NCBI RefSeq assembly: GCF_003226565.1
Contig: NZ_QKOE01000002.1
Location: 1-64,000 of the forward strand
Origin: Parazoarcus communis SWub3 = DSM 12120
GTDB taxonomy: Bacteria > Pseudomonadota > Gammaproteobacteria > Burkholderiales > Rhodocyclaceae
Length of the DNA: 64,000 nucleotides
Direction of reading: 5' to 3'
Positions 12,679-28,052 of this stretch are shown one piece after another. The notes beneath the pieces are model-generated. The model was not told where the DNA came from. It made no database searches and saw only the letters and a list, made by a program, of their open reading frames with translations. Positions within the stretch are counted from its first letter, which is position 1, and every line of letters starts with the position of its first letter. The translations under genes and the position numbers were made by a program.

Positions 12679-12926
12679 TCAAGCTCTAAGTTTGACAAAA
12701 ATCAATCTATTGCATCGCAGCAAACCGCCCCGCTGCCAGTCTTCCCTTCCTGACGCTGCCACGCCCGCGTACTGACGTTCGTTTTCCATACGTTCATCGT
12801 CTTACCGCTCGCCCGTTGCCGGGCCTTCACCGGCTTCGCAGCGCAGCACCCCATGAACGGACCGCCCCCTTCCGTCCTTGTCCTGACCGCCTTCTTCGTC
12901 ATCTCGCATCGCAGCACCCGCACCTC

Positions 12927-26082: not shown

Positions 26083-27006
26083 TCAGGCTTCGGCGCACAC
26101 CCTAAGCATCGCCAGCCTTGCCGCAGCCAGATCCCACCCACCCCAACCGCAGCTCTTGAACAGCACCGGCCCCGCCGGACGCGGACGCGACTCCCGCACG
26201 ATCTCAGCCAAGGAGGGCAGGGCGGTGATGTCGACGCCGGCCTGCAGCAGGTCGCCCGCCTCATGTTCGGCATCACGGGTATCCACCACCACCGTGCCGC
26301 AAGCCATCAAGTCACGGCACATTGCCGGCCCCAGTTCCACCATGCTTGGGGTAAAGGCGCCCACTGCGGCAATGAAGGCATCCTCACGCGGGCGGGCATC
26401 CAATACCACGCCACTGGCCGGCGTGGCGGTGACGACCAACGGGCAGTCCGGCAAGGCCGCCGCCGCGTTGTCCACCACCCGGGCCTGAGCACCCAGCGTA
26501 CGGACATGCGCCGCAAGCGCCTCGGCGCTCGCCGGGCTGCGTGAGCAGATCCACACCTCCCGAACTCCCAGGCCGGCAACAAAGGCCTCCACATGCGCGC
26601 GCCCCTGAACACCCGCCCCCAGCACCAGCAAGGGACCACGGGTGTTCGGAGCCAGTCGCTGCGCCGCCAGCAGGGACACCGCAGCAGTTCGGTGAGCGGT
26701 GACGGTGGGGCCATCCAGCACCAGCCGGCGCGTACCGGTTGCGATATCGAACACCACCACATCGCCCTGTATCGTCGGCCTGCCGGTTCCCGCGTTGGCG
26801 GGGGTGAAGGTGATCAACTTGGTCATGGCCACCGTGGCATCGTTGGCCGGCATCACGAACAGGCTGGCACCACCGGGCAAGGGCTGCACCAGGCGCGGCG
26901 GCACAGTGACTGCGCTGTCGGTGAGCGAGGCGGCCAGTTCATCGGCCAAGGCGGGGTAGGGCAGGCAGGCGGCAGTCGCCGCAGCGGACAGCAAAATGTC
27001 GGACAT
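26083..27006 (-). CDS. Ornithine cyclodeaminase/mu-crystallin family reductase
   Basis: This is a 307-residue NAD(P)-dependent protein. Family motifs are TVPPRLVQPLPGGASLFVMPA near residue 34, KLITFTP, the Rossmann loop LLVLGAGVQGRAHVEAF (about 125-142) and GAFTPSMVEL. The overall style is closer to delta-1-pyrroline-2-carboxylate/piperideine-2-carboxylate reductases than to ornithine cyclodeaminase itself, so a role in proline, hydroxyproline or lysine-derived imine reduction is likely. It converges on the diguanylate cyclase gene and has no operon partner. Confidence 0.8.
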   Translation of the reverse strand: MSDILLSAAATAACLPYPALADELAASLTDSAVTVPPRLVQPLPGGASLFVMPANDATVAMTKLITFTPANAGTGRPTIQGDVVVFDIATGTRRLVLDGPTVTAHRTAAVSLLAAQRLAPNTRGPLLVLGAGVQGRAHVEAFVAGLGVREVWICSRSPASAEALAAHVRTLGAQARVVDNAAAALPDCPLVVTATPASGVVLDARPREDAFIAAVGAFTPSMVELGPAMCRDLMACGTVVVDTRDAEHEAGDLLQAGVDITALPSLAEIVRESRPRPAGPVLFKSCGWGGWDLAAARLAMLRVCAEA

Positions 27007-27280
27007 GGCTCGGTCGGGTCATGGTGCGGGACAGCATCTTACCGCTAGCAGAACCGGTCGGCCTTGCATCTGGCGTCGGGCACCGCCACTGCTTCAGCGT
27101 CGCACAGGCATACCGGCGGCAACATCCCCGGCTTCGGACAAGACTGCAAACCATGACGTACGCAATCTCGTGTTGCGCATTGCAAAAACCCGTATCGCAT
27201 TAAATTATCCCCCGAATACACCGATGAAACCTCAATCATTCATAAAACTTATGGTTTCATAGAAACATTCGAATGCGGTA
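27007..27280. other. Gene-free region upstream of the small RNA candidate
   Basis: I see no gene here. It holds an inverted repeat ATGAAACC (27223-27230) and GGTTTCAT (27253-27260), plus a CATTCGAATG palindrome at 27266-27275, in a locally AT-rich stretch. These lie just upstream of the predicted promoter at 27281 and may be regulator sites for it. Confidence 0.4.
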
Positions 27281-27310
27281 TTGTTGCGACGCACAAGGTG
27301 TTCGTATAGT
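27281..27310 (+). promoter_or_regulatory. Predicted promoter of the small RNA candidate
   Basis: TTGTTG (27281-27286) and TATAGT (27305-27310) are separated by 18 bases; the -10 differs from TATAAT by one base. Transcription would start near 27317. No protein gene follows before the terminator. Confidence 0.5.
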
Positions 27311-27316
27311 ATTTGA

Positions 27317-27390
27317 ACCGTCTCCTCCACCCTCCTCCTTTGGTGTGGATTTAGGCCCGAACACTCAAGTGATCGGGCCTTTTCTTTTTT
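27317..27390 (+). ncRNA. Candidate small RNA with anti-Shine-Dalgarno loop
   Basis: Between a promoter-like element and an intrinsic terminator lies about 74 bases with no coding capacity. The first hairpin (27326-27349, seven pairs with one bulged U) exposes the loop UCCUCCUUU. This copies the anti-Shine-Dalgarno tail of 16S rRNA and would pair with ribosome binding sites. The second hairpin is the terminator. This two-hairpin layout with a CCUCC loop is known for several proteobacterial trans-acting small RNAs. A similar layout occurs near 46,440. The start point and expression are inferred. Confidence 0.6.
27353..27390 (+). terminator. Intrinsic terminator of the small RNA candidate
   Basis: AGGCCCGA and TCGGGCCT arms with a 12-base loop are followed by TTTTCTTTTTT. 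It points in the plus direction, while both neighbouring protein genes (ending at 27507 and starting at 27006) are on the minus strand. It therefore implies a plus-strand transcript of its own. Confidence 0.88.
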
Positions 27391-27506
27391 GCAGTCCTGT
27401 TTCCGCTGATGGTCAGTCACCAAGCCATCACAAGTGTCACTGCCCAGCGGTTCAATGGCAAAACAGGCCAGATCTTTCGACCTGACCCGCCCCTGGGTGT
27501 CATCGA

Positions 27507-28052
27507 TCAACCCAGCTTTTCCAGCAACAAGGGTTTCACTTCGGCCAACCAGGCGTCGATACGCTCGTTGGTATGCATGCCCTGGGTGCGCTCGTCGATC
27601 ACCAAGCCGACAAAACGCCCGTCCCGGACCGCGGCAGATTGTTGAAAGGTGTACCCCTCGGTGCTCCAGCTACCCACAATTTCGGCGCCATAAGCTGCAA
27701 ACACCTCATGGAGCCGCATCAGCGAACTGGCAAAGCGTTCTGAATAGCGCTCCTGTGCGCCCAGGCCGAACAGTGCAATGCGCTTGCCGGAAAAATCCGG
27801 CTGCGCCATCTTGGCGAGAAACTCTTCCCAGTTCGGCTCCAGACAACCGGCACTGCGGCCGGGGATCTGTTCCTGGCCATAGCTGGGAGTGCCGAGAATC
27901 AGCACATCGTATGCGAGCATCGCGGCCGGCTCGATGCGATTGACGTTGACCGGCTTGTCGGCCAGTTCGTCACCCAGCTTCTTGTGGATCTTCTTGGCGA
28001 TCAGGCGGGTGGTACCAGTCTCGGTACCAAAGAACATTCCAATCTTTTTCAT
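27507..28052 (-). CDS. Long-chain flavodoxin
   Basis: This 181-residue FMN protein has the phosphate-binding loop FGTETGTTR at residues 8-16, the 60s loop GTPSYGQEQIPG and the 90s loop GLGAQERYSERF, with the insertion typical of long-chain flavodoxins. It carries electrons at low potential in the cytoplasm, for example to nitrogenase or radical enzymes. No such client is adjacent, although a radical SAM protein lies elsewhere in the window. The ATG at 28052 gives the canonical MKKIGMFFGTETG start; no strong ribosome site is visible. Confidence 0.93.
   Translation of the reverse strand: MKKIGMFFGTETGTTRLIAKKIHKKLGDELADKPVNVNRIEPAAMLAYDVLILGTPSYGQEQIPGRSAGCLEPNWEEFLAKMAQPDFSGKRIALFGLGAQERYSERFASSLMRLHEVFAAYGAEIVGSWSTEGYTFQQSAAVRDGRFVGLVIDERTQGMHTNERIDAWLAEVKPLLLEKLG

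Follow-up and report, generated by a model that had tools for sequence, protein, structure and literature searches.

The small RNA (sRNA) gene analyzed here is located on the plus strand of a 64,000-nt stretch of the Parazoarcus communis SWub3 genome (contig NZ_QKOE01000002.1, positions 1 to 64,000; hereafter the window), and it encodes a predicted transcript of about 74 nt. The RNA is a member of the already known sRNA family RF02278, which covers the ribosome sites of messages, and its promoter carries a palindrome that fits the published operator of the regulator PhaR. Based on these features, a circuit is considered probable in which the window copy, one of three RF02278 sRNA genes of this Azoarcus-type betaproteobacterium, is repressed by PhaR, a protein that binds polyhydroxybutyrate (PHB), and relieved when PHB accumulates, and in which the sRNA lowers the translation of uptake and catabolic genes. 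It is nearly as probable that, across Betaproteobacteria, the RF02278 family at large serves as the RNA branch of the PhaR regulon, which senses PHB, with the storage granule setting the sRNA level. While the RNA itself is of a known kind, the operator in its promoter appears to be new.

When the whole window was searched with cmscan, RF02278 (“Betaproteobacteria toxic sRNA”) matched positions 27319-27386 over the full model (1-64) with 57.2 bits (E 7.2e-9; gathering score, 50 bits), and nothing else in the window exceeded the gathering score of an Rfam family. Besides the covariance score, the RNA has the two hairpins of the family, the second being the terminator, together with the conserved 5' CU-rich site and a CU-rich loop. 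The family was reportedly named in a 2012 study by Kimelman. A preliminary description of the sequence had called the RNA possibly undescribed, a reading that was rejected because of the RF02278 match; kin have been reported in Burkholderia cenocepacia (ncS03, ncS05, ncS27 and ncS62) and Herbaspirillum seropedicae (four sRNAs) (PMC5688073, PMC4603805, PMC7011215), and S17 of Bordetella is a close relative by similarity (PMC11722255). The same description had proposed a trans-acting type of sRNA, which agrees with a conserved family that has CU-rich stretches complementary to Shine-Dalgarno (SD) sequences and whose members are reported to lower the expression of genes with matching ribosome-binding sites (PMC5688073, PMC11722255).

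The 74 nt at 27317-27390 were predicted to fold with a minimum free energy of -27.5 kcal/mol. Dinucleotide shuffling (200 sequences) gave -14.4 (sd 2.6), and no shuffled sequence folded as well (z -5.07). The plus-strand hairpin with the loop UCCUCCUUU and the terminator, as first described, were thus confirmed by sequence and fold. The 5' site GTCTCCTC is complementary to GAGGAGAC-type ribosome sites; in the predicted fold, 27320-27325 are unpaired and the final two bases of the site start the stem of hairpin 1. The loop had also been equated with the 3' tail of the 16S rRNA, which we take to end in ...CACCUCCUUU-3'; the two share CCUCCUUU, but the leading U of the loop is unmatched. A simple consensus scan for promoters and terminators returned no promoter, and its sole terminator-like site was located elsewhere on the minus strand; the terminator of the sRNA was missed probably because of an internal mismatch in its stem.

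Conservation was analyzed in 137 distinct 5' parts. The 5' site GTCTCCTC was exact in 135 of them and CCTCCTTT in 73, and the 5' site is therefore more constant than the loop. The four outer positions of the hairpin-1 stem were paired in 132 parts; since these four pairs served as the selection rule of the count, their pairing holds by construction, and the evidence for the stem is the changes of letters. Both sides had changed at stem position 9 (C-G to T-A) in 4 parts, and the pairs found at position 11 were C-G (60), T-G (40), T-A (15) and A-T (13). These anchored pairing counts replaced a global MAFFT alignment with RNAalifold (170 sequences), which had recovered four terminator-stem pairs only.

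All five genomes of the genus had RF02278 matches above the cut-off, as did 33 of the 61 genomes in the relatives set and 114 of 300 genomes of the order. With the two-sided stem changes, the lack of loop or stem conservation in relatives that would have refuted the preliminary description was clearly not observed. In the class, matches above the cut-off were restricted to 2 of 185 genomes, both from the order itself, although 51 of the 185 had a match at E <= 0.001; no match above the cut-off was obtained in 14 control genomes. The genome of P. communis SWub3 gave four matches at E <= 0.001, three of them above the cut-off. The fourth (on C209, 30.3 bits) was not counted as a copy, given that it lacked the core sequence and was terminator-like.

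A -35/-10 promoter had been noted before the RNA. The pair TTGCGA and TAGTAT, with a 17-nt spacer, is present, but it is weak by consensus, and its -35 lies inside a palindrome that the preliminary description did not mention. When the copies of the genus were aligned, two kinds were distinguished, a long form (one per genome) and a short form, to which the window copy belongs. The long-form copies have promoter-like sequence that precedes the conserved part by about 55 nt, and a longer precursor is therefore expected. In the short-form copies, a -10 element directly precedes the conserved 5' end; because this holds for the window copy, a primary transcript is expected from it. A TGC-N3-GCA palindrome was present before both forms and led to the published PhaR operator consensus YTKNTGCRNYGCANMAR, from Ralstonia eutropha (PMC12849132), which the palindrome of the window, TTGTTGCGACGCACAAG, fits at every position. 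According to the scan of the window, this was the single match without mismatch, and two matches were found with at most one mismatch (0.91 expected). The genome has a phaR gene (PF07879, 109.5 bits, E 4.2e-31), and TTGTTGCRNYGCA occurs at nine exact sites in its 5.0 Mb, as opposed to none when read backwards; some of the nine seem, by eye, to lie inside genes.

To place the operator across the family, 180 copies from 178 loci in 127 genomes were used, taken among the listed matches above the cut-off (relatives, genus and order). Loci L184, L185, L187 and L203, three of which have the operator core, stood outside this set for want of an anchor match; one of the two matches at L054 was taken, and one copy with a short upstream region was left out where n = 179. 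The operator with at most one mismatch was found within 200 nt upstream of 57 of 179 copies, whereas 200 permuted palindromes gave a mean of 0.46 and a largest value of 14. Within the same distance, the core TGCRNYGCA was present before 104 of 180 copies; when all 64 half-sites of the form NNN-RNY-rc were compared, TGC was followed by a next best count of 9 and a median of 2. In 27 of the 180 copies, the core is centred at -36 to -25 relative to the conserved part. At this fixed place, the TTGCRN (or GTGCRN) of the operator is followed after 17 nt by TANNNT in 22 of the 27, and one further copy has a spacing of 14 nt. No TANNNT was found in the stretch searched for the remaining four, of which two are long-form copies that carry another core internally. 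The -35 element thus appears to be built into the operator in the window and in 21 other short-distance copies, where PhaR, once bound, would mask it.

The presence of the core was then compared with that of phaR, as judged by a PF07879 search. Of the 97 genomes with phaR, 80 had the core, as did 1 of the 30 without phaR (Fisher p 1.2e-15, uncorrected for kinship). In families whose genomes all have phaR, the core was present in 13 of 13, as against 0 of 6 in families that all lack it, and within mixed families the counts were 41 of 47 and 1 of 9, respectively (p 0.001 with labels shuffled within families). The operator is thus nearly always gone where phaR is gone, while the RNA itself is retained. 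As a positive control, two cores 59 nt apart were observed in the main phasin promoter of all five genus genomes, and a core within 400 nt upstream was found at 9 of 17 phasin-family loci (17 of 19 matches, L087 and L088 being left out). No core was found within 400 nt upstream of the five phaR genes of the genus. When the GTDB collection was searched for TTGCRNYGCA-N10-40-GTCTCCTCCACCCTCC, 97 stretches were obtained; among the 80 listed, all with a named genus, family, order or class were betaproteobacterial and the others were titled only Proteobacteria or Pseudomonadota.

Predicted targets were sought as ribosome sites with GGAGGAGAC, the complement of the 5' site, at 1-10 nt before ATG (GGAGGAGACN1-10ATG). 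Eighteen such sites were found in the genome and none with the pattern reversed; the 27 triplets that differ from GAC at all three positions, placed after GGAGGA, gave 120 sites (4.4 per triplet), and 46 when reversed. Fifteen proteins were scanned, L327 and L333 (12 and 32 aa) and L336 being left out, with L330 scanned in NCBIfam only and L337 cut by the locus end. Thirteen of the 15 matched families, and 11 of these 13 are, by our own sorting, transport or catabolic proteins or a sigma-54 activator. On the side of transport and regulation, there are five binding proteins (two of the DctP family, two of Peripla_BP_6 and one of NMT1 type) and the sigma-54 activator. The enzymes are a phenol hydroxylase, an enoyl-CoA hydratase, an acyl-CoA dehydrogenase, a sulfide dehydrogenase flavoprotein, an AMP-binding ligase (phenylacetate-CoA ligase type by reading) and a CaiB-type CoA-transferase (below NCBIfam cut-offs); a DUF900 protein was also matched. 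This list resembles the one published for S17, in which transporters, PaaN and a sigma-54 activator are reported or predicted (PMC11722255). Predicted duplex energies did not separate the sites from the control (30 of the 120 control sites, 11 with plausible starts by eye). Duplex energy was rejected as a target filter for this reason, and the predicted list serves as a lead only.

As a separate observation, the ribosome site of phaR in the genus (L065-L069) is GAGGAGGA or similar, with a predicted sRNA pairing of -22.5 to -29.9 kcal/mol, energies that do not discriminate. The sRNA may therefore also act back on phaR.

According to the proposed circuit, PhaR would occupy the operator and block RNA polymerase when there is no PHB in the cell. 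With a carbon surplus, PHB would form, PhaR would be drawn onto the granules and the ~74-nt RNA would be made. Purine-rich ribosome sites would be bound by the 5' end of this RNA (GUCUCCUC) and by the loop of hairpin 1 (UCCUCCUUU), and this pairing would lower the translation of mRNAs for the uptake and catabolism of organic acids, amino acids and aromatics, including those of sigma-54 activators. The binding of PhaR, repression as its effect and the targets are predictions from sequence. In B. cenocepacia, ncS03, ncS05 and ncS27 were up 8.0-, 6.9- and 4.3-fold in glucose medium (PMC5688073, Table 2).

Several observations weigh against the circuit. Of the phaR-bearing genomes, 17 of 97 lack the core; five of six such genomes in family f21 do so, though all six are 1-2 mismatches from the full consensus. 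G158 is the sole genome without phaR that has the core, although it is 85% complete, and phaR may therefore have been missed. The core was also found in the downstream flanks of 14 of 180 copies, above a rough expectation of 1%, and another copy in the P. communis SWub3 genome (L001) departs from the full consensus at three positions, with the core intact. Because the operator of the long-form copies is mostly near -80 to -110, repression by occlusion is less obvious there. The duplex energies (median -26.2 for the GAC set and -25.1 for the control) leave the evidence for the targets weak. In the published data, the rise of ncS27 in biofilm (9.7) exceeded that in glucose (4.3), while ncS03, ncS05 and ncS27 were all up in starvation as well (2.6 to 3.9) (PMC5688073); in R. 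eutropha, PhaR represses phaP1 and activates phaP3 (PMC12849132).

The last of these, together with the upstream position of the long-form site, would suit a control in which PhaR chiefly activates the sRNA, or represses it from one of the two promoter forms and activates it from the other, as it does with phaP1 and phaP3. This is unlikely, as the operator contains the -35 in the window and in 21 other short-distance copies, a repressing position as reported for mmgR (PMC8401924). Slightly less likely still is an ordinary RF02278 sRNA whose palindrome is bound by another factor or merely accompanies PHB producers by shared ancestry. The clustering of phaR absence in a few families would be expected from shared ancestry, whereas the exact fit to the published PhaR consensus, the two sites of this form that each main phasin promoter of the genus carries and the counts within mixed families argue for PhaR itself.

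There is little to recommend the reading of the RNA as toxin-like, or as an anti-SD decoy, with a general lowering effect on translation. The family was reportedly named because its members inhibit E. coli growth when cloned, and the predicted duplex energies single out no particular mRNAs; the loop is presumably equal to the anti-SD sequence. The constancy of the 5' site, however, exceeds what a generic SD blocker would need. Moreover, in E. coli BL21 in LB, growth was only modestly impaired on entering stationary phase (PMC11722255), and the effects of NcS27 varied with the growth substrate, according to a review. Finally, it is scarcely credible that the region holds no sRNA gene and is instead part of a small coding gene or the 3' end of a neighbour. 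A 70-codon plus-strand frame does span 27273-27485, but the structure is conserved with two-sided stem changes and runs into a terminator, and the neighbours are encoded on the minus strand, as the preliminary description had it, namely a gene of the ornithine cyclodeaminase/mu-crystallin family (26083-27006) and a flavodoxin gene (27507-28052). The two flanking proteins were found at none of 14 other genus loci (1.5 kb each side, E 1e-3).

The PhaR-controlled RNA proposed here was compared with known systems. The double-hairpin RNAs of B. cenocepacia belong to the same covariance family, with two hairpins, CU-rich unpaired stretches and several dispersed copies per genome. An upstream motif common to three of the four copies is mentioned there; the available passages name no regulator, in contrast to the PhaR operator proposed for the window copy. 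In Bordetella S17, the 5' 27 nt of the short form are reported to be fully conserved in various Betaproteobacteria; S17 pairs with ribosome sites, and its reported -35 TTGCAT with a 17-bp spacer (PMC11722255) has the word and spacing of several operator copies. RNase E releases S17S from a longer RNA, whereas in the window copy the conserved 5' end directly follows a -10. MmgR of Sinorhizobium meliloti (suhB, RF00519) is likewise a short RNA (77 nt), with a PhaR/AniA dyad within its -35/-10, and is repressed by PhaR (PMC8401924), which makes it the precedent for an sRNA under PhaR control; it lowers phasin expression, while the predicted targets of the window RNA are mainly in uptake and catabolism. 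The sibling NmsR sRNAs of Neisseria show CU-rich stretches complementary to the ribosome sites of metabolic genes (PMC5688073), and the window RNA matches them weakly. It scored 15.9 bits with the RF00519 model (cut-off, 41; E 0.61) and 26.3 bits with RF02877 of NmsRb (cut-off, 52; E 0.029), and membership in either family was rejected.

A functional operator would identify the regulator that is still lacking for a widespread betaproteobacterial sRNA family, and would offer a handle on carbon flow in PHB-producing bacteria. The circuit, if true, would be the betaproteobacterial counterpart of the rhizobial PhaR-MmgR pair and could explain both the upstream motif and the regulator of the double-hairpin RNAs. 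In the available passages, the regulator of sRNA accumulation is given as yet unknown (PMC5688073), the S17 promoter is postulated to be repressed in vivo by a repressor that is left unnamed (PMC11722255), and the riboregulation of PHB formation in Cupriavidus necator is said to remain undeciphered (PMC8401924). No link between PhaR or PHB and RF02278 sRNAs was found in the open-licence literature, and reports may exist elsewhere (e.g., the 2019 NcS27 paper). Words for PhaR or PHB were absent from the texts of PMC5688073, PMC11722255 and PMC10987360; PMC7011215 had one PHB reference, and PMC4603805 had “Phar” in address words only.

Features of the sRNA gene and its upstream region in the window (strand “.”, none assigned)
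Feature	Position	Strand	Basis or remark
Predicted sRNA transcript, ~74 nt	27317..27390	+	Fold and RF02278 match at 27319-27386; ends inferred
Conserved 5' site GTCTCCTC (corresponds to S17 Site 1)	27320..27327	+	Exact in 135/137 distinct 5' parts; fold
Hairpin 1, stem UCCACCC / GGUGUGGA	27326..27349	+	Fold, pairing counts
Hairpin-1 loop UCCUCCUUU (Site 2)	27333-27341	+	Fold
Hairpin 2 and U-rich tail, intrinsic terminator	27353..27390	+	Fold; missed by simple scan
Predicted PhaR operator TTGTTGCGACGCACAAG, palindrome	27281..27297	.	17/17 positions fit YTKNTGCRNYGCANMAR; contains likely -35
Likely -35 TTGCGA, inside operator	27284..27289	+	17 nt before TAGTAT
Likely -10 TAGTAT	27307..27312	+	17-nt spacer from TTGCGA
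Alternative -10 TATAGT, 15-nt spacer	27305-27310	+	
Second upstream element ATAGAAACATTCGAATG, palindrome CATTCGAATG at 27266	27259..27275	.	Alignment of genus copies

The ATAGAAACATTCGAATG element is no PhaR site; variable versions of it precede the other short-form copies found in the genus.

Among the best 20 sub-threshold places in class members outside the order (L375-L394, 38-49 bits), most had a CU-rich hairpin-plus-terminator build. An AT[AT]TTAGA element was found within 120 nt upstream in 8 of the 20, followed in 6 of these by a ATACTGATT-like stretch, and the PhaR core was upstream in 2 of the 20, both in one genome (G419). The family thus seems to extend beyond its order, mostly without PhaR control and under a different promoter, while the two G419 copies, each with an upstream core, indicate that the circuit may reach outside the order. 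In Aromatoleum and Azoarcus, four operator-plus-sRNA units were located within about 3.5 kb, paired at about 170-300 nt (L250, L253, L284 and L303), an arrangement regarded as local amplification of the sRNA together with its operator. At L184, L185 and L203, in the small genomes G111, G259 and G066, the 5' site is kept and the CU-rich loop is lost (CAAACAU), with the operator core still upstream.

Elsewhere in the window, a PhaR-like site with one mismatch (about one such match being expected by chance) was found at 12707-12723, between a minus-strand catalase-peroxidase-like gene and a plus-strand gene resembling an acetone carboxylase/hydantoinase subunit, as judged by eye. In the same genome, two short genes of 49 and 59 codons (L062 and L063, at C176:91034 and C176:92303) are located 1.3 kb apart, each preceded by TTGTTGCATTGCA and then TACAGT; on these upstream sequences, they are possible candidates for small proteins under PhaR.
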